21,236 nucleotides of DNA from a virus. The stretch spans positions 1 to 21,236 of IMG/VR virus record IMGVR_UViG_3300035698_009135, one strand, 5' to 3'. Shown here piece after piece: positions 1-21,236 of this stretch. Every line of letters begins with the position of its first letter. Position 1 is the first letter of the stretch. The notes under the pieces were generated by a model, which was given only the letters and a program-made list of their open reading frames with translations, was not told where the DNA came from and did not search any database. Position numbers and translations under genes: made by a program.

Positions 1-316
1 CAACTATATCACCACTCGATCCGTCCCCGATGGTCCATGTATTAGAAGAAGTTAAATCTCCCCCGGCAACACAATCAGAATAAGCGCTTCCATCTTGGGA
101 ACATTTGAATTTACCGGAAGTAAGATCGAAATACATTCGGCCCATATCAGAGGGGGCAACAGCCGGCTCTGGTGTACCTTCAAATTGAATAACCTCTGCG
201 TCTAAATGGCAATAACCATCAACCGTAACTTCACATTGGGCTTGCACTTTATTGGGGGCAAGAAATATGAAGGTACTAACTATGAGAAGAATCAGCCCGT
301 TCAATGTCTTTTTCAT
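1..316 (-). CDS. Secreted fibre-like protein with Sec signal peptide (C-terminus cut by window edge)
   Basis: The frame is open from an ATG at 316 to the left edge, giving about 105 residues with no stop, so the C-terminus is missing. An in-frame TAG directly precedes the ATG, so no longer start is possible. Residues 1-26 look like a classical Sec signal peptide: MKK, then a hydrophobic core (LILLIVSTFIFLA), then a VQA cleavage site before QC. Residue -1 to the cysteine is glutamine, so a lipobox is unlikely. The mature part has four cysteines in two pairs, then segments (GRMYFDLTSGKFKCS, TWTIGDGSSGDIV) like the beta-rich repeats of phage fibres and secreted bacterial proteins. The start overlaps the preceding coiled-coil gene by 41 bases, and the Shine-Dalgarno (AAGAAAG) is weak. 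The family resemblance is my inference; the signal peptide is read directly. Confidence 0.7.
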   Translation of the reverse strand, partial: MKKTLNGLILLIVSTFIFLAPNKVQAQCEVTVDGYCHLDAEVIQFEGTPEPAVAPSDMGRMYFDLTSGKFKCSQDGSAYSDCVAGGDLTSSNTWTIGDGSSGDIV

Positions 317-1082: not shown

Positions 1083-1436
1083 TTACACCGCAATAGTTTC
1101 ATATTCTTCGATCATGGCTGTCATGTAAACATTGGCTGTTCCGGCCTGATTAACGTCAACATTGAATCCATCCCCGACCTTTAATTCAATATCCTTCCCC
1201 GGAAGATAAAAATAATCCGTATCAGACGACAAGGTTGTGATATCAATAATAACGCTATAGGTCGCACCTGTCGCAGACGTTATTGTAACTATAATTACAT
1301 TACTACTTGAAGCGTCAAATTTCAGCCCGATCCACTTTAACTTAAAATCTCTTGTTGCAACAAAGGTATAAGCTAAAGCAACAGAACTTAAAAGCGCTGT
1401 GGCTTCTTTTTTAATTCCGGCATGTTTGTATCCCAT
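1083..1436 (-). CDS. Small beta-rich protein, probably an abundant virion component
   Basis: This 117-residue protein has a short basic N-terminus (GYKHAGIKKEA) followed by alternating hydrophobic/polar stretches with many Val, Ile, Thr and Ser (NVIIVTITSATGATYSVIIDI), typical of a beta-sandwich. There is no signal peptide or enzyme motif. The ATG at 1436 is preceded by AAGGAGTAATATC, one of the strongest ribosome sites in the window and almost the same as the one before the cement-protein gene, so high expression is likely. It follows the tail fibre directly: the fibre stop lies within its leader. A decoration, cement-like or fibre-associated protein would fit composition and position. I do not recognise a named family, so the role is inferred. 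Confidence 0.85.
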   Translation of the reverse strand: MGYKHAGIKKEATALLSSVALAYTFVATRDFKLKWIGLKFDASSSNVIIVTITSATGATYSVIIDITTLSSDTDYFYLPGKDIELKVGDGFNVDVNQAGTANVYMTAMIEEYETIAV

Positions 1437-1457
1437 GATATTACTCCTTTTTTATTA
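1437..1457 (-). promoter_or_regulatory. Strong ribosome-binding leader of the 117-residue protein gene
   Basis: On the minus strand the leader reads TAATAAAAAAGGAGTAATATC and then ATG; its first TAA is the fibre stop codon. The AAGGAG core sits 7 bases from the start. It matches the cement-protein leader almost base for base, apart from one inserted G and the last bases. Confidence 0.8.
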
Positions 1458-2483
1458 AGCTGTTCTTTGCCAAACATATTTAACGATATATGGCTGTAAT
1501 ATGCTAGGCGTACCGTTTGCGCTCATAGCGTCCGATGTTCCTGTATGAGTATGTGAAGGACCCGCACTTGAAACTTGATCCCCACCTGATTGATCGTCCG
1601 GGCTTACAACGGCAGAAGGTCCACCTGTGGTATATGTATGTGCATGAGCAATATTTACTGTTTCAGCCCCACCCGTTGCATTTAACGTATTAAATGTTCC
1701 GGCTGCTGCCTTACCAACAATGACCATGCCTTCAATAGCAGTCCACGTTCCAAAACCAAATAACGTCGCAGGATTAGTGGCAACACCAAGCGTAACAACG
1801 ATTCCTATAGGATATAGCCCTTGCACCGCGCTTGCTGCTGCTGCTGCTGCTGCTGCTGCACTTGCTGCTGCATTACTCTCGGCAGTTTCGGCATTCGTTT
1901 CTGCGGTTTCAGCATTATTTTCAGCAGTTTGTGCGTCATTTTTTGAAGATTCGGCATTCGTTTCGGCTGATTCGGCTGCTGCTTGGGCTGCTTCGGCATT
2001 CGTTTCTGCTGCTTGGGCTGCTGCGATTGAAGCTGATAAGGCTGCTACGGTGATTGTGCTTTCGGTGGGCCCGGCAAGAACCGCTCGATCAAGTTGCTCT
2101 TGAATCTGTTGAGCAATATATGTAATATAATCAAGCGCGTCCTCGTATGTTGCAGGGAAGAAGCTTCCTTGATTACGAATATCTGTTTCCTGAACTAAAG
2201 GTACAACGCGCCTAATATTAAGAGAATAGCCCGTTTTAAGATTTCCCGCGCCATCAAGCCAATCTTGACCCGCTTCAACAAGAACAACTGTTCCACCCGC
2301 AACTTCTCCAACATCCGTAACAGTATAATCAGTCGTGATCGTCAGTTCAGTTTCAACGCCATCCGTATCAGCAACGGTTAATACAAGGTGATCCTCGTCA
2401 AGCACCTTAAAAGTATAATCATACGTCCCAAGATTCCCCGCACCTGTATAGTCATTAGTATTTGTTGCTGAAGTAAGCGTCAT
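1455..2483 (-). CDS. Tail fibre: T7 fibre-like N-terminus, heptad stalk, collar/gp10-like C-terminus
   Basis: This 342-residue protein is the only complete receptor-binding candidate here. Residues 1-135 resemble the T7 gp17 N-terminal domain that anchors the fibre to the tail: it opens with TNTNDYTGAGNLGTYDYTF and contains LNIRRVVPLVQETDIRNQGSF and YEDALDYITYIAQQIQEQLDRA. Residues 159-207 are seven successive heptads of the AETNAEx type, followed by nine alanines at 209-217, a trimeric stalk. Residues 224-342 resemble the C-terminal domain of gp10-type baseplate or collar proteins: PIGIVVTLG, NPATLFGFGTWTAI, histidine clusters HAHT (280-283) and HTHTG (311-315), and the ending ILQPYIVKYVWQRTA. 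The histidines probably bind metal in a trimer. Start ATG at 2483 has GGGGGA upstream. The protein is much shorter than T7 gp17 (553 residues). Confidence 0.9.
   Translation of the reverse strand: MTLTSATNTNDYTGAGNLGTYDYTFKVLDEDHLVLTVADTDGVETELTITTDYTVTDVGEVAGGTVVLVEAGQDWLDGAGNLKTGYSLNIRRVVPLVQETDIRNQGSFFPATYEDALDYITYIAQQIQEQLDRAVLAGPTESTITVAALSASIAAAQAAETNAEAAQAAAESAETNAESSKNDAQTAENNAETAETNAETAESNAAASAAAAAAAAASAVQGLYPIGIVVTLGVATNPATLFGFGTWTAIEGMVIVGKAAAGTFNTLNATGGAETVNIAHAHTYTTGGPSAVVSPDDQSGGDQVSSAGPSHTHTGTSDAMSANGTPSILQPYIVKYVWQRTA
1833..1859 (-). repeat. Pure (GCA)9 trinucleotide repeat coding for polyalanine in the fibre
   Basis: Nine identical GCA codons on the coding strand (TGC nine times on the plus strand) encode Ala209-Ala217. 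A further GCA triplet run at 1863-1871 is separated from it by one AGT codon. Length change by slippage would stay in frame and only lengthen or shorten the stalk. Confidence 0.95.
1863..2009 (-). repeat. Seven tandem heptad codons of the fibre stalk
   Basis: Seven imperfect 21-base units encode residues 159-207: AETNAEA, AQAAAES, AETNAES, SKNDAQT, AENNAET, AETNAET, AESNAAA. The alanines at positions 1 and 5 are nearly invariant. This is a coiled-coil stalk likely made by tandem duplication. Confidence 0.85.
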
Positions 2484-2521: not shown

Positions 2522-5500
2522 CTAAAACGGCTTCTTTTTTCTCTTTTTTCCACCGGGCGTCAATGCACTCTCGGACCAAATTAAACGCCTTAAATCTTCA
2601 TCATTACCAGAAGTAAGATCAAGAGCGCCTTTGACCGTTCTTCTCATTTGAGAAAATGGTAATTGAGCATATACAGCAACAAGAAACGCTGCTTCATCAA
2701 TAGCGCCAATATAATCACCATTCGCAATATTCGATCCCATATACTTCATATTATCTAAAACCGATTGAGCAGGGCTTATTGATGGATCATAACCCCGGAA
2801 TAAAGACATTCCCCAATTTCCCAAAATAGGAATAGAAGATAATATGTTGCCGAAAATAGCGTCAAAATATTCTTCAGGTTCTTCCGGCAAACGACCATGT
2901 GACATAATATAAATCATCATTGAAGAAATCATTACAGACGCGACACCAACAGAAGCTTTACCAAATTCCTTTTCTTGCAATTCAGCAGGCAATTCAGCTT
3001 TCATCATATTCCAAATCTGATTCAACTGATTCGTAAACATTAAAACCATGCGAAGATATTCATTGTTTTCTCGATATAATTCAGGTAAATCCTTGATCCC
3101 GCCCTGTGGCTGCGTCGTAATAACTGCCTTATCTGCAATATCCCGCGCTTCAGCTTCCGACTTTGTTTTCCTTTGGAAGTTATAAACGCTATCATAAACC
3201 GCTAAAACCGCCCGGCGATCCATGTCCATAATCATAGCGAAAGCCACTTTATCAATTGTCTTTGAAGCTTCCTGCAATCTTCTTTTAATATCTCCTTCAG
3301 GAAGGTCCTTAACTTGCTCCATAATTTCCCGCAAATCCCTTGTCAATACACGATTCTCTAACGCGGGCGCATTCTTATATATTTCCTTTCGTACTTCGGG
3401 ATCAAAAGAAGTGCGTAATATGCTTGCCAATAAATCTTGCGGGGACGTATGTTTTAAGGCTAACACAACAGATGGGAACTGCTTCAATGCTGTGACCATA
3501 TTTAAACCAAGAAACGCCTTGCTCAATCCATGCCGAAGCCGTCGAACAAACGTCTGGTGGTGTCCGCCGTGATAAACCAACTGCGGATTAACGACCTCTT
3601 TTAAATACCGATTAAAACTTTTCCAAGCCTTCTCGGAGTAATTGTAAGTGACTGCTGCTTGAAGCTGTTTATCGTTTACCGCTTTGTTAAAGGCCTTCTG
3701 TAAAGGCGCGTGCGCAATTAAGTGTTCCTGCGTTTTCAATGTGCGTAATGCGTCACCTATAAAATCAAGACTAATTTCTGTTTGAAACCTCTCGTCAATA
3801 TCCTTACGTTCAATTGTGATCGTTTTATCCGCAGACGTATAACTAAATCCGGGGCCGGATCGTAGGCCTAATTCGTATATGACCTCTGCTTCAGCCGTAG
3901 GATATAATTGTTCTGCTGTCTGATTGAGCGCAACACGCTTTAATGGAAAATAGATTTTAACTTTTTTAAGAGTGGTGTTAAATATATTCTGCATTGTATC
4001 TGAAATCGCGTCATATCTATCAGCCACAATGCTCTGTACTTCATCAGCGAATGCGATATATTCCGGCGATACCAGTTTAATAAATTCATTAATTTCTTCC
4101 TCTGTTATGTTGTTGCCATGCTCCAAGGCCCTCATTGATTGTTCATCTTTGGTCGCAAGGTACATTCTTAATATTTGATTAACTTGAAATGATTGTGTTC
4201 CATTATTAATAACTTCACCAAGACCGAAGAAAGTGACTTTATGCTTCTTCATACTAGCCTGAATAGCCTTTTGACGTTTAATGAAATGAATGTTCTCTTG
4301 CGTATCAGCAGCGTTAATGCTGTCATAAAATATCCTTTCCCCAAGCTTGCCGAATATCTTACGAATGATCTGAATAGGCCGAAGCGTATTAATATCAATC
4401 CTATCGTTAAGATTAGCTTTTTTACTTTTCTTTTCCTCAACTGATCCCTTTGCGAATGTCCCATCAGGGAGCCCGCCAACATTCCTAATTAACCCGGCGC
4501 TCAAAATCTCTGACGCCATAGCGCGCTGTGCCTCCTTAGATTTGAAGGAAGCCCGACCTTCATCTTTCAATTTAGCAACAATCCCGGCAACTCGCTCTAA
4601 ATTCTCTGTTGACATTTCCTTAATAGATCGCTGACGCTCCCCCTTAGTCGCGCCAAGTTTCTCTAATATATCGTCAATATGTTTTTGATATTTTACATCA
4701 GTCACGTTTTCAGGGTTCTTAGGCTGCTTCAGAATCGTCTTTTCAAGCTTCCCGCGCTTCTGTTTTTCGGCTGCAATATTGGCAAGGTTATTAACGCGGG
4801 TTTCGATCTTGTCCATTAATTTCTGAAATTTCTTATCACTCGATACATCCCCCTCTGTGACCTGCCCTAACGTCTTAACGAACTTCCCGCGATCATGTAG
4901 GCTTAATCGCTTGAGAACGTCATTAATCGCTTTAATACGCTCCCCTAAGACTTCTTTTGCTTCAACAACACCCTTTTTAAACCCTCTCCTGATATGTTTG
5001 ATCTTCTCTTTTAATATCGTAGTTTCGCGCTTGGCAAGAAGCTTTGGCTTTTTCTCGTTAATCTCACGTTTCTTCTCTGAAATTTGTTCATCAATATATC
5101 TTGATTTTATTTTTTCAGGCCGGAATATCCTGTTTGTCGTTTCGGACTGTTGACCAATTTCGTCAGAAATGAATTGACGTAATCCATTATCATCAGGATC
5201 GTAGCCAAGAATTTCAAGGGCTTCACTAATATCTGTTTCAGCAGCAATATTATCAAGTGTCCGGCCTTCTCCTTCTTTACCGAACAAGCTGCGGGGGATC
5301 AACTTTTCTTCACCAGTAAGGCCCGTCTTTTTGATCTTTGTAGACTTTAATCGCTTCTTTATAGTTTCCTTTAGACCGTCCGTGAACCCTTCACTTTCTT
5401 CCTCAATATCCCGCAACGCTTCCAACTGCTTTAATTCACCCTGCGCAGTTTCCAGTTCATCTAATTGACGACCTTCCTTGTCAATTTGCTCCTGAAGCTT

Positions 5501-6910
5501 TTTATCAATATATGTTCCAAGGGTGGTATTTCTTTGTTTCGTAGGCTTCTGCGTAGAAGGTTCTTGACCAACGGTTATATTGTTAATTTCCGTAGCCATA
5601 GATTCTTCATCAACTACCTCGTCCTCAATTCGATCAACCAATTCAAGGTCGGCAAGATGGTCATGTACGGACCGTAACGTGGTCTTTTCAGCTTCGGTTA
5701 ATTCTTCCCCGGATAATGCCTTAACAACAACGGCCCCGCGCTTTTGTTCATCTTCAAACGTCCTACCACCAAGATCGGATTTCCACTCGGGTAAATTGTC
5801 AAATGCTTCCCGCGCTGATTCTTGCGCTATTTTTTGCATTTCTTCACTTTTGGCTTGTTTCTGTTCCGGCGTAGGTTCGGCCTTCACTACTTGATCAGCA
5901 GCTACTCCGGCAACGTCAGCGCCTACGCGCGGGCCCATGAGAAACAACATAGGGATTGCAGATTCTTTAATAGCATTCCAACCCTTAATCGCTGAATTAG
6001 TTATTACTTCAGCAACACCCTTTTTTGTTTTCTTCGCAATATTTGTTCCAATATCTTTCGCAGCAGTAATAACAACTTCCTGCAATCCTTCTTCCCCAAT
6101 TTCCTGAAGCCAGTTAGCCCCATGTTTAGCTGCTAACTTCTTAATTGCTGTGCTAATAGTGTCTGATATTGCTCGCCTAGCAAAATTCCGCGCACCGGGA
6201 ATTAACTTATCAACTTGTGAATATTCAATTGCACCGTATAATCCGCCCGCTATTTGTGACGTAGGAATAGATATAGAATCAGGCACACCTTCGTCACGAA
6301 GATCAGAATAAAGACTTCCCGCGCCCTGTTTAGCCCAATAAAGAACTGATCCTGCTGCTGTACCAAAACCAATGGCTGTCGGTACAGTCAAAATTTCTTC
6401 TGGTGTTAAAATTTGTGGCCCGGCCTGACCAAGCGCAGCAGCACCTAATCCGGCAGCCAATCCGATTGTTTTCCCCTCAATAATACCTTTACCCATAGCG
6501 GGCAACATATTCGCAACAGAATACAGAGCGTCCATGAAGAAGTTCCCGCCATCAACAGGGTTCTCTCTGACCCGGTTTCGGAAATTCTCTTTGATCGGCC
6601 TAACATCCTTATCATAATCAATGTCACCAATTGAAGCGTGATAGGACATAATATCAATATTGGAAGAAGCGTCACCTTGAGCCCATGCTTCTTTAAGATT
6701 CTCTACGATTGTAGGTGGTGCTTTAACTATGGATTTGTGAAGTTGCTGTTCAAGGAAGGTGTCAGGATCATCAATATCGTTAGTAATATTATCTTCGATC
6801 CGGCCTAATCGTTCAAACTCGTCAATATCTAATGCTCGCCCGGACGCGATAGGTACGTCCTTTGTTGCGGGAAGCGATTCAAATTCATCAATTGAAATTG
6901 CCCGTACCAT
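2522..6910 (-). CDS. Giant internal virion / DNA ejection protein (T7 gp16 position)
   Basis: At 1462 residues this is the largest gene. It comes last of three consecutive internal-protein genes, the place of T7 gp16 (1318 residues), and would form the DNA-ejection channel across the host envelope. Visible parts: two glycine/alanine-rich hydrophobic stretches near residues 138-195 (IGLAAGLGAAALG; IGFGTAAGSVLYWA); a helical segment containing LQEIGEEGLQEVV; a long Lys/Glu-rich helical middle; a conserved-looking region near residues 1130-1300 (NMVTALKQFPSVVLAL; TTQPQGGIKDLPELYRENNEY) resembling large polyvalent-protein-associated domains of phages; and a hydrophobic segment near 1318-1336 (VASVMISSMMIYIM). 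I see no lytic transglycosylase motif at the N-terminus, unlike T7 gp16. The ATG overlaps the preceding stop as TAATG with AAAGG upstream. The ejection role is inferred from order, size and composition. Confidence 0.85.
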   Translation of the reverse strand: MVRAISIDEFESLPATKDVPIASGRALDIDEFERLGRIEDNITNDIDDPDTFLEQQLHKSIVKAPPTIVENLKEAWAQGDASSNIDIMSYHASIGDIDYDKDVRPIKENFRNRVRENPVDGGNFFMDALYSVANMLPAMGKGIIEGKTIGLAAGLGAAALGQAGPQILTPEEILTVPTAIGFGTAAGSVLYWAKQGAGSLYSDLRDEGVPDSISIPTSQIAGGLYGAIEYSQVDKLIPGARNFARRAISDTISTAIKKLAAKHGANWLQEIGEEGLQEVVITAAKDIGTNIAKKTKKGVAEVITNSAIKGWNAIKESAIPMLFLMGPRVGADVAGVAADQVVKAEPTPEQKQAKSEEMQKIAQESAREAFDNLPEWKSDLGGRTFEDEQKRGAVVVKALSGEELTEAEKTTLRSVHDHLADLELVDRIEDEVVDEESMATEINNITVGQEPSTQKPTKQRNTTLGTYIDKKLQEQIDKEGRQLDELETAQGELKQLEALRDIEEESEGFTDGLKETIKKRLKSTKIKKTGLTGEEKLIPRSLFGKEGEGRTLDNIAAETDISEALEILGYDPDDNGLRQFISDEIGQQSETTNRIFRPEKIKSRYIDEQISEKKREINEKKPKLLAKRETTILKEKIKHIRRGFKKGVVEAKEVLGERIKAINDVLKRLSLHDRGKFVKTLGQVTEGDVSSDKKFQKLMDKIETRVNNLANIAAEKQKRGKLEKTILKQPKNPENVTDVKYQKHIDDILEKLGATKGERQRSIKEMSTENLERVAGIVAKLKDEGRASFKSKEAQRAMASEILSAGLIRNVGGLPDGTFAKGSVEEKKSKKANLNDRIDINTLRPIQIIRKIFGKLGERIFYDSINAADTQENIHFIKRQKAIQASMKKHKVTFFGLGEVINNGTQSFQVNQILRMYLATKDEQSMRALEHGNNITEEEINEFIKLVSPEYIAFADEVQSIVADRYDAISDTMQNIFNTTLKKVKIYFPLKRVALNQTAEQLYPTAEAEVIYELGLRSGPGFSYTSADKTITIERKDIDERFQTEISLDFIGDALRTLKTQEHLIAHAPLQKAFNKAVNDKQLQAAVTYNYSEKAWKSFNRYLKEVVNPQLVYHGGHHQTFVRRLRHGLSKAFLGLNMVTALKQFPSVVLALKHTSPQDLLASILRTSFDPEVRKEIYKNAPALENRVLTRDLREIMEQVKDLPEGDIKRRLQEASKTIDKVAFAMIMDMDRRAVLAVYDSVYNFQRKTKSEAEARDIADKAVITTQPQGGIKDLPELYRENNEYLRMVLMFTNQLNQIWNMMKAELPAELQEKEFGKASVGVASVMISSMMIYIMSHGRLPEEPEEYFDAIFGNILSSIPILGNWGMSLFRGYDPSISPAQSVLDNMKYMGSNIANGDYIGAIDEAAFLVAVYAQLPFSQMRRTVKGALDLTSGNDEDLRRLIWSESALTPGGKKRKKKPF

Positions 6911-11725: not shown

Positions 11726-12336
11726 TATCCTTCCCTCACTCTTATAAATTCAGATTCAACAACCTCGTCGTCTTGCTGCTCATTAAAGGCAGTTGCTTCT
11801 GCTTTTGCTTTAGAAATATTATATAAATTAAAAGCCCGTTCACCTAATTTAAAAGGATCGCCTGCTGTGACGCTCGGAGCGATATATGTGGCTAATAATA
11901 AGGAAAGCATATTTACATAATCTTGAGTAAACAATGTTACGTCTGTTACCTTTTTTGTATATTTTCCAAGCGCGCCCTCTGTGTCGCAAAATATTAATTT
12001 ACCTGAATCATCACTAGCAATTTCAGATGGGACGCGCGACTGCCTACTATCATTTCTGACTGTATTTAATATTTTTCTAAACCTCATACAATCAACTGGA
12101 TACCGATAAGAATACGCCCAATCGGTGTTAGGGGTTTCTTCGATAAGACCTAATGTTGCATATTTAGTAGCGAAGGGCCAATTGAAGTCGCGGAAGGTTT
12201 CATCACGCGCTGAATCAAACCAACGTCTACACGCTTTAGCATTCGCTGAAACTTCAGTATCAATATTATTTATTTCTTTACTGATACCTAAATGTGTCAG
12301 CCCTAAATTACAAATTTCGGTCTTGGAAGAAGCCAT
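11725..12336 (-). CDS. Head-tail adaptor / tail tube protein (T7 gp11-like)
   Basis: This 203-residue protein carries the usual features of the T7 gp11 (tail tubular protein A) family: an N-terminal helix ICNLGLTHLGIS, then WFDSARDETFRDFNWPFATK (residues 39-58), YSYRYPVDCMRFR in the middle, and a C-terminal helix with many alanines. It docks below the portal and connects to the nozzle protein encoded two genes later. The start ATG follows the previous TAA by one base, with GAGGACG further upstream. Length matches the family (T7 gp11 is 196 residues). Confidence 0.9.
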   Translation of the reverse strand: MASSKTEICNLGLTHLGISKEINNIDTEVSANAKACRRWFDSARDETFRDFNWPFATKYATLGLIEETPNTDWAYSYRYPVDCMRFRKILNTVRNDSRQSRVPSEIASDDSGKLIFCDTEGALGKYTKKVTDVTLFTQDYVNMLSLLLATYIAPSVTAGDPFKLGERAFNLYNISKAKAEATAFNEQQDDEVVESEFIRVREG

Positions 12337-12337
12337 T

Positions 12338-12742
12338 TTAAATCACGTCCTCGTCCCCGCTAACTTCGGGTACAGGTTTTTGGTCCGCCTGCGCTACTTC
12401 TTCAGCAGGGCCCGCGTCAGGAGCCTTCTCCTGATCTGCGCCTTGATCCTTGGTATCTTCATCAATACCATCAGCAGGCGGTATTTCTCCCGGGCGTTTT
12501 GCCGGATGTTGAATTCCGCCTTCGTGGACAGCTTTATTTCCATCAGAAGCAGGCCTTGCTGCCCGACCATCTGAAGCTTTACGATCATCAATTTCGCTTT
12601 GAGCAGATACATCAACCTTCTTCATATACTCTTTTGAAAACTGTTTCATGCTATTAATGACAACGATTTCACCCTGCTTAATTCTCCTGTTATACGGATT
12701 TCCCATATAACCCGGCTCCAAAAATCGAACTCGTATTCCCAT
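12338..12742 (-). CDS. Small protein with N-terminal beta domain and acidic disordered tail
   Basis: This 134-residue protein lies between the cement protein and the gp11-like adaptor. Residues 1-45 (IRVRFLEPGYMGNPYNRRIKQGEIVVIN) resemble the small beta-barrel N-terminus seen in many short phage proteins at this position. From about residue 46 on it is low-complexity and acidic, rich in Ala, Asp, Glu, Pro and Gly, hence probably disordered. The ribosome site AAGGA lies 11 bases upstream of the ATG, and a GC hairpin precedes it. No family with a known function is recognised; a minor head protein or assembly factor is plausible from position. Confidence 0.75.
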   Translation of the reverse strand: MGIRVRFLEPGYMGNPYNRRIKQGEIVVINSMKQFSKEYMKKVDVSAQSEIDDRKASDGRAARPASDGNKAVHEGGIQHPAKRPGEIPPADGIDEDTKDQGADQEKAPDAGPAEEVAQADQKPVPEVSGDEDVI

Positions 12743-12767
12743 GATTTTAAAATCCTTTCTCTACTGA

Positions 12768-12787
12768 CGGGGGGATTAGTCCCCCCG
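12768..12787 (-). terminator. Perfect 8-bp GC-rich hairpin after the cement gene (no U-tract)
   Basis: CGGGGGGA and TCCCCCCG flank a four-base loop, so the stem is fully paired over eight base pairs. It lies 23 bases after the cement-protein stop and 25 bases before the next ATG. Neither side has a run of T on the transcribed strand, so it is not a standard intrinsic terminator. An attenuator, RNA-processing or mRNA 3'-end stabilising element is more likely. Confidence 0.6.
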
Positions 12788-12810
12788 CCTATAGAATATT
12801 AATATTGACC

Positions 12811-13245
12811 TTACGAAATGGTAATATTGTCCGCGTAAACTTTCACTTTATCAATTCCAACCGTCAAGAATGATGTGAAAGAACCAGTTGAAAGGTTGCC
12901 AGTATTCGGCGTGTAATACAGACCGATATACTGATACTGCAACGAAGCCAAGCCCGGACTAAGCTTATGGAAGAACTTCGTCCCGGCTGCGGAAACAGCA
13001 GGGATCGTGAACAACGTATCTTCGTCGTCCGGGGTAATTGTGGTGGTACTATCACCACGCAACGAAACTGTGACTGTTGAATCTGACCCGGAATCTGTCA
13101 TGGCTACGTCAACGATAGTCACAACATAAAGGTCTGCGCCCGTACCAATATCACGAACAGCACCTAAATCAAGAATGTTAGTTGAGATAGCTGCTGCTGT
13201 GACGGCCTGTGCGTCGGAAAACAAGCATTGAGAATCTAAGAACAT
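12811..13245 (-). CDS. Capsid cement/decoration protein (Bbp16-like)
   Basis: This 144-residue protein follows the major capsid gene and has the hallmarks of the BPP-1 Bbp16 family: start FLDSQCLFSDAQAVTA, then ILDLGAVRDIGTGADLYVV, then a beta-sandwich rich in Thr, Ser and Val with SDSTVTVSLRGDS and a C-terminal strand VKVYADNITIS. Such proteins bind the outside of the capsid at local symmetry axes and stabilise it. The ribosome site AGAGGAGTAATCC is very strong, as expected for a protein needed in hundreds of copies. Length and order (scaffold, capsid, cement) match. Confidence 0.9.
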   Translation of the reverse strand: MFLDSQCLFSDAQAVTAAAISTNILDLGAVRDIGTGADLYVVTIVDVAMTDSGSDSTVTVSLRGDSTTTITPDDEDTLFTIPAVSAAGTKFFHKLSPGLASLQYQYIGLYYTPNTGNLSTGSFTSFLTVGIDKVKVYADNITIS

Positions 13246-13267
13246 TGGATTACTCCTCTTTTTATTA
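13246..13267 (-). promoter_or_regulatory. Strong ribosome-binding leader of the cement gene
   Basis: The minus strand reads AATAAAAAGAGGAGTAATCC just before the ATG region. The GAGGAG core lies eight bases from the start. It is nearly the same as the leader of the 117-residue gene at 1437-1457 and similar to that of the major capsid gene. Confidence 0.75.
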
Positions 13268-13306
13268 GGTAAATATTATTTTTTAAACAAGCAACCAAAA
13301 CTACAA

Positions 13307-14308
13307 TTACGTTACTTGTGCTTCAGTTTCAAGAAGCGCGTCACATAGACGTACAGGTACGCCCCGGAATAAAGGAACTCTTTTTCCGTCAACATTGTCG
13401 TATGTGATACCACCACCAGAAATAACATCATCCCGGCGCTGAATATCAAGATATTGGAATAGGGAACGATTCATGTAGAATACAGCTTTCCCTAAATTGA
13501 TATTCGGAATTCTGTGCATGGCCTTAATCATAAGCTTGGTCATTTGCGCAGCAGAAGATTCCGCGACGAGATTGCTAACGTCAACATTGGCAACACGAAC
13601 AGCATATCGCCAATCCTTAACTGCAAGTCCCGGGTCCCAAGTCCATTGATCCCTATAGGCCCTCATGCGACTTCCGGCAATTCCGGCGGTTGTTTCAACG
13701 GTTTCAATCCCTAAATCATTGTGCTCAAGCCCTGCCTTTGAGCCCTTTGGATAGATACCGTACAAAGAATTTTCGCCCCAAACACACAGCCAAATAGAAC
13801 TGTTGTCAGAACCCGTCCCGCCACCGTCAACAATGTTTTGAGCATTATCTGCGGATAGATCGGAATAACGAATCGCTAACCCGGTGAATTCCTCGGGCGC
13901 GGTCCCGGCGTTACCATAAAAAAGCGTACCCGCCATTTCTTGATTCATGGCTTCGATAAAAGCCATAGCTTCACTCAACCTGAACGCGTTCACGTTATTG
14001 TTAAGTTTAGCAAGCTTTACATCAACTTCTGACCATGCTTCAAGCATTCCACAAGCTTCATCAACCTGCGCAGTCGTACTTTTTGATGGCTGCACACCTT
14101 GATTAAGCAAGCGCCATGCAACAGTCGGTAAACCTGTACGCACGGTGACGCGGTGGCCCGTAGGCAAATTTCCTTCACGCCATAACATATCAGCGAGAAT
14201 TTCATTTGTCTGCGAAAGCAATTCAACAATTTTTGGAACTTTGCCATTAGGGTCTAACCTTTTGGCCCAATCTGCTAATGTTAATACATTTGATCCAAGT
14301 GTGGACAT
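13307..14308 (-). CDS. Major capsid protein (Bbp17 / epsilon15 gp7-like)
   Basis: This 333-residue protein is the expected HK97-fold shell subunit. It starts TLGSNVLTLADWAKRLDPNGK, then has ILADMLWREGNLPTGHRVTVR (residues 37-57), LPTVAWRLLNQGVQPSK, and FTGLAIRYSD (141-150), all typical of the capsid proteins of BPP-1/epsilon15-type podoviruses. The C-terminal third contains YMNRSLFQYLDIQRR and VPVRLCDALLETE. It lies directly between scaffold and cement genes. Its leader TAAATAAAATAGGAGTTATATT gives a strong ribosome site, in line with very high expression. No truncation or frame problem is seen. Confidence 0.95.
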   Translation of the reverse strand: MSTLGSNVLTLADWAKRLDPNGKVPKIVELLSQTNEILADMLWREGNLPTGHRVTVRTGLPTVAWRLLNQGVQPSKSTTAQVDEACGMLEAWSEVDVKLAKLNNNVNAFRLSEAMAFIEAMNQEMAGTLFYGNAGTAPEEFTGLAIRYSDLSADNAQNIVDGGGTGSDNSSIWLCVWGENSLYGIYPKGSKAGLEHNDLGIETVETTAGIAGSRMRAYRDQWTWDPGLAVKDWRYAVRVANVDVSNLVAESSAAQMTKLMIKAMHRIPNINLGKAVFYMNRSLFQYLDIQRRDDVISGGGITYDNVDGKRVPLFRGVPVRLCDALLETEAQVT

Positions 14309-20765: not shown

Positions 20766-21236
20766 TTAGGGGTTTAGGATTGAGTCTACATTACTGGCTT
20801 CTGTTGCACTTAGGCGCTTGTTGAATAGGGCTATGCCTGTTAGTATCATGGCTTGACTTCCACTAGCTTGTATAGTCATACTAGCTGGTAGTGCTCCTAC
20901 TGGTGCAGAATAGTTGGCGTTTGAACCCTTATCTACACCATCAAGGTACGCTACTATCTTATCTCCTCCAAGTGCTGTCGTAGAATATGTTCCAATAAGA
21001 GAGTGGAGACTGTATCTAACTGAACCGAATGGCTCTGCTCCAACATTAGCATTAAACTGAGTATTCTCAGATTCACTAACAAACTCTGGTCTATCACTAG
21101 CTATGAACATATATCTTACTTGCCATTTATTATCTCCGTCTATCTGAACATTGAAGAAGTCAACCCATTCAGTTCCTAGCTCATCCGGCAACATAATCGG
21201 TCTATAAACAAAAGCAATACTCCCATCAGTCCCACC
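20766..21236 (-). CDS. LamG / concanavalin-A-like beta-sandwich protein (N-terminus cut by window edge)
   Basis: The frame is open from the right edge to TAA at 20766, at least 156 residues; methionine at 21194 is probably internal, because the reading continues in frame through SIAFVYRPI to the edge. Alternating strands (WQVRYMFIASD, RYSLHSLIGTYS) and the segment KIVAYLDGVDKGSN, then MTIQASGSQAMILTGIALFNKRLSATE, fit a LamG or concanavalin-A-like domain as found at the ends of phage fibres and other glycan-binding proteins. Codon use differs from its neighbours: isoleucine is mostly ATA, arginine mostly AGA and leucine often CTA. It may be a receptor-binding or tail protein of recent foreign origin. 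Confidence 0.75.
   Translation of the reverse strand, partial: GGTDGSIAFVYRPIMLPDELGTEWVDFFNVQIDGDNKWQVRYMFIASDRPEFVSESENTQFNANVGAEPFGSVRYSLHSLIGTYSTTALGGDKIVAYLDGVDKGSNANYSAPVGALPASMTIQASGSQAMILTGIALFNKRLSATEASNVDSILNP

Follow-up and report, generated by a model that had tools for sequence, protein, structure and literature searches.

Virion proteins of tailed phages are normally assembled in the cytoplasm. The described systems that come closest to the gene analysed here are the two-protein fibre LtfA-LtfB of the T5-like phage DT57C (PMC4728585), the mosaic adhesive trimers of Bdellovibrio (PMC10769870), and the exported superinfection-exclusion lipoproteins, including the small Llp of T5 and similar proteins (PMC9586334). 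Each of them shares one aspect with the gene, and none matches it. As with LtfA-LtfB, a short docking fibre stands beside a separate gene with putative receptor-binding modules; the part of the DT57C paper covered here mentions no signal peptide, whereas in the present case the second protein, and in one relative (L111) also the first, carries a predicted Sec signal and is cysteine-rich (PMC4728585). The Bdellovibrio trimers are encoded on the host chromosome and are displayed on the surface for predation, a conserved beta-rich domain of about 130 amino acids lies directly behind their signal peptide, and 13 of 21 end in an S74 chaperone/protease (PMC10769870). The signal peptide and a phage-fibre-like body are common to both, but here phage genes adjoin the tail fibre, and a Pfam search of the complete homologue from another contig (L113) gave no S74 match; this absence is not decisive, because 8 of the 21 trimers also lack S74. 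T5 Llp is likewise a phage protein that is sent to the envelope and can affect receptors (PMC9586334), whereas the present protein has no lipobox, is fibre-like, and is encoded in the virion unit.

The window, i.e., the whole stretch of DNA that was analysed, is an entire IMG/VR virus record of 21,236 bases. It contains a podophage structural unit comprising terminase, portal, capsid, tail tube A, a phrog_376 tail protein, internal virion proteins and a fibre, and the names terminase, portal and capsid were given by position and relatives. The gene for the putative exported protein comes after the fibre and is truncated by the contig end: its reading frame (2-316, minus strand) starts with the ATG at 316 and continues for 105 codons without a stop as far as the edge of the contig, where the record ends, so that the leftward extension suggested in an earlier note is impossible. 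The following features were annotated:

2..316, minus strand: 5′ part of the gene for a predicted Sec-exported fibre-type protein, based on the reading frame and the complete homologue L113:12766-13845 (359 aa)
239..316, minus strand: predicted signal peptide of 26 residues with predicted cleavage VQA^QC, based on a rule-based score of 7.97, passing of the strict rule, and the homologue's own signal peptide
2..238, minus strand: start of the mature part, with a four-cysteine module (CEVxxDGxC ... KCSQDGSAYSDC) and the onset of a beta-type stretch; Cys 28, 36, 72 and 82 are kept in L113
276..1079, minus strand: gene for a coiled-coil protein, overlapping the putative exported gene by 41 bases; positional counterpart of L113:11919-12776 with weak similarity
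1083..1436, minus strand: small protein between fibre and coiled-coil protein, homologous to L113:11581-11931 (32% identity, E 4e-15)
1455..2483, minus strand: short T7-type tail fibre of 342 aa with a docking N-terminus (phrog_1640, 2e-36) and a Gp10_C-like C-terminus (Pfam Gp10_C, 3e-14)

Signal peptides were called with a rule of our own that scores the n-, h- and c-region, and not with SignalP. The N-terminus of the window protein is MKKTLNGLILLIVSTFIFLAPNKVQA^QCEV with cleavage predicted after A26, and the protein continues as MKKTLNGLILLIVSTFIFLAPNKVQA^QCEVTVDGYCHLDAEVIQFEGTPEPAVAPSDMGRMYFDLTSGKFKCSQDGSAYSDCVAGG... The pattern expected for Sec and signal peptidase I, a positive n-region, a hydrophobic h-region and a c-region of the A-x-A type, was present both in this protein and in its homologue. 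The score of 7.97 compares with 9.0-9.2 for the E. coli proteins OmpA, MalE and LamB, while no signal was called in LacI, and it was attained in 58 of 20,000 trials when residues 2-35 were shuffled. Taken alone it is moderate evidence, because 15 of 260 virion genes located 5′ of fibres in related loci also reached at least 7.9. The window signal also passes the strict rule, and it becomes convincing because that rule found no gene upstream of the fibre and because the complete homologue has a signal peptide. Neither the window protein (VQAQC; ...NKVQA-QC) nor the homologue (...AYA-EGMC) fits the lipobox [LVI][ASTVI][GAS]C.

The homologue came to light when viral contigs were searched with aligned fibre N-termini; direct pattern scans gave none. 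It has 359 aa, is 36% identical to the window protein (E 2e-16), is preceded by a good ribosome-binding site, and its signal peptide has a score of 9.99. In L113 the fibre is followed by genes for 112 aa, for 116 aa (the homologue of window 1083-1436), for a coiled-coil protein of 285 aa and for the signal-peptide protein, and the last two overlap by 11 bases. All four cysteines of the mature window protein (C28, C36, C72 and C82) are conserved (4/4), and cysteine pairing is predicted. Beyond the cysteines the homologue has beta-type repeats with a wording like that of fibre repeats and no Pfam or PHROG profile match, and an AlphaFold model from a two-row alignment had a pLDDT of 35. The repeat-like, beta-type sequence together with the position suggests that both proteins are of fibre nature.

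An earlier note, written from the sequence of the window, had described an exported fibre-like protein of beta type with four cysteines, encoded in the virion transcription unit. The predicted signal and the conserved cysteines bear this out, the 41-base overlap was verified (276-316 is shared by 276-1079 and 2-316, both on the minus strand), and the membership in the virion unit is strengthened by L113, where the gene likewise overlaps a coiled-coil gene after the same small gene and fibre. A fibre type is suggested by the repeat-like sequence of the homologue. The complete homologue has retained a cleavable-type signal, and no homologue turned up that is an ordinary fibre extended at its N-terminus in a different frame. 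Of the roles that the earlier note had proposed, surface coating, a superinfection block and an adhesin function are conceivable.

The window protein had no Pfam, no PHROG and no convincing PDB match, and PDB sequence searches matched it to no solved structure. A T7-type docking domain (phrog_1640-like) was absent from it and from the homologue in a PHROG search; in the window the separate gene 1455-2483 has it. A pattern scan for relatives of the 105-aa and the coiled-coil protein, which reaches close relatives only, yielded none.

Signal-peptide genes after a T7-type fibre were present in 10 lineages (the window, L011, L183, L113, L111, L103, L105/L106, L104, L115 and G009), with two such genes in L011, three in L111, and six in a row in L183. 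In all loci together, a set that includes one biased member (L041, found via an exported protein) and a count that includes a few spanin- or lipoprotein-like genes, none of the 89 genes that precede the fibre passed the strict rule, and 27 of the 81 that follow it did. At the loci that had been found only by the fibre N-terminus the values were 0/43 and 12/50 (Fisher p 3e-4); the p-values for this slot are indicative because some loci share ancestry, L041 is biased, and there are a few spanin- or lipoprotein-like matches. The phages with this slot form one group of uncultivated, environmental T7/epsilon15-like podophages, in which the tail protein is 48-77% and the terminase 48-76% identical to that of the window where measured. 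Five members of the clade (L107, L108/G004, L110, L114 and L116) have no signal-peptide fibre-type gene after the fibre, and therefore the gene is not essential. The L183 contig (MVQL01000157.1, 44.9 kb) is binned to a Pelotomaculum MAG; it has the terminase, tail protein and fibre of the clade and is probably a phage contig.

The mature parts of the exported proteins vary, and the content of several points to fibres. Family matches were phrog_863 tail fiber (L104) and phrog_6002 virion structural (G009, L041), and domain matches were Laminin_G_3 (L113:14743) and a pectin-lyase-like domain (L111:11385). Two collinear blocks of the 615-aa exported protein of L103 correspond to distal stretches of the L107 fibre, a one-piece protein of 1153 aa (E 3e-15 and 6e-6), and this L103 protein also matches the C-terminus of the L116 fibre; the exported proteins of L115 and L183 share shorter stretches with the fibres of L185 and L210. 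The fibres are short (177-484 aa) in phages with an exported gene and mostly long in those without (p 2e-4). The T7-type fibre of L111 itself begins with an in-frame signal peptide, its start is preceded by GGAGG, and the predicted cleavage leaves TISSTTSRMDYTGNG, the canonical fibre N-terminus minus its methionine. The exported mature parts contain 1.22 cysteines per 100 aa compared with 0.32 in fibres, and the cysteine number is even in 9 of 15 cysteine-bearing exported proteins, some of which are truncated. A recurrent, Sec-targeted and cysteine-rich fibre-type slot, which includes a signal-fused T7-type fibre, is unexpected against the textbook picture of wholly cytoplasmic tailed-phage assembly.

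The leading reading, held tentatively, is that the window gene encodes a distal fibre or receptor-binding module that was split from a short T7-type docking fibre, is exported via Sec, is probably stabilised by disulfides, and most likely joins virions. The distal module would have separated from the docking fibre and gained a signal peptide for Sec. It would be made late in infection alongside the virion proteins, exported via Sec and cut by signal peptidase I; it would fold, and probably form disulfide bonds, outside the reducing cytoplasm, and it would most likely join virions on the docking fibre once the inner membrane is breached at lysis. We infer the export itself, the late expression, the disulfides and the joining of virions after export, and the virion-joining fate is favoured because of the L111 fusion, the one-piece fibre counterpart, the short docking fibres and the position in the virion unit. 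The L111 fusion also makes it plausible that an exported protein may itself be a virion fibre, a reading absent from the earlier note. That the clade as a whole exports its own virion fibres via host Sec, forms disulfides outside the cytoplasm and completes assembly at lysis, when capsids meet fibres, is possible, if less than probable. In one open-access library, a scope that makes this weak evidence of novelty, no published description of exported tail fibres was found.

It is rather doubtful that the exported fibre-type protein acts free of the virion, with secreted or surface-held receptor-binding, lectin or lyase modules that would occupy or trim receptors on the infected cell, on debris and on neighbours, so that superinfection or wasteful adsorption would be blocked or matrix cleared. 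Such a role would agree with the lectin-fold gene (Laminin_G_3), the pectin-lyase-like gene and the several fibre modules in the exported set, with the lack of a docking domain in the window protein and its homologue, and with cassettes of three to six different exported genes (L111, L183, L041), which seem beyond the need of one tail. However, the gene lies in the virion unit, and in several relatives the lysis genes come after it, whereas early expression is described for superinfection-exclusion proteins (PMC9586334); in L111 the signal peptide of the fibre is still followed by the domain for docking to the virion, and the exported modules match distal fibre parts. The recurrent slot would imply either that in some phages the receptor-binding apparatus is finished outside the cytoplasm or that free receptor-binding modules are released by infected cells.

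A non-exported, signal-like anchor or assembly peptide at the N-terminus of an ordinary, cytoplasm-assembled virion protein is clearly unlikely. It would conform to the usual place of virion assembly and to a window score that is moderate and is passed by the 15 upstream virion genes, but many unrelated mature parts are preceded by a complete n-h-c pattern that ends in an A-x-A-type motif, the strict rule was passed by none of the 89 upstream genes, the exported mature parts are enriched in cysteines, and the predicted cut in L111 restores a canonical fibre N-terminus. Capture by the phage of a host surface adhesin as an accessory gene, for which the Bdellovibrio trimers with their pairing of signal peptide and phage-fibre-like domains would be a precedent (PMC10769870), is highly improbable, as in many lineages the slot, the gene order and the fibre modules are of phage type, and the window query had no relatives in the genomes of 84,980 species of bacteria and archaea (by a method that reaches close relatives only) and matched no solved structure. 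The host-derived surface protein that the earlier note had listed as an option is thus disfavoured: the slot holds phage fibre-type genes clade-wide, and the exported protein of L103 corresponds to the distal half of a relative's fibre. For annotation this would mean that a fibre gene with a signal peptide in a viral contig is not necessarily of host origin.

Several candidate observations were not retained. A match seen by eye between the window module and residues 507-552 of the L107 fibre was rejected, since the profile that found it included L107 and a profile built without L107 missed it. The signal trait is not general to fibres with G009-type repeats, because among repeat-bearing relatives in unrelated viral contigs 7 of 86 had a signal compared with 33 of 849 other reading frames. 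An upstream start in the L117 fibre was set aside, as no ribosome-binding site was seen.

Some further features were noted in passing. In the more distant viral contigs L041 and L095, three or four signal-peptide genes stand in a row close to fibre-type genes. In L148, a contig of the enterobacterial-prophage type, a signal-peptide gene of 595 aa (12263-14050) follows the fibre and is apparently unrelated to fibre modules. Limnohabitans phage DC33 (L101, PQ492659.1) is filed as Inoviridae despite its tailed-phage structural genes. In the window itself, the fibre is preceded by a 1462-aa internal protein (2522-6910) that is partly homologous to proteins of a Rhodobacteraceae phage and of a Methanomicrobiales-assigned contig, and at the far end a partial reading frame (20766-21236), upstream of a small-terminase-like gene, gave a weak concanavalin-like lectin match (Laminin_G_3, E 0.017).
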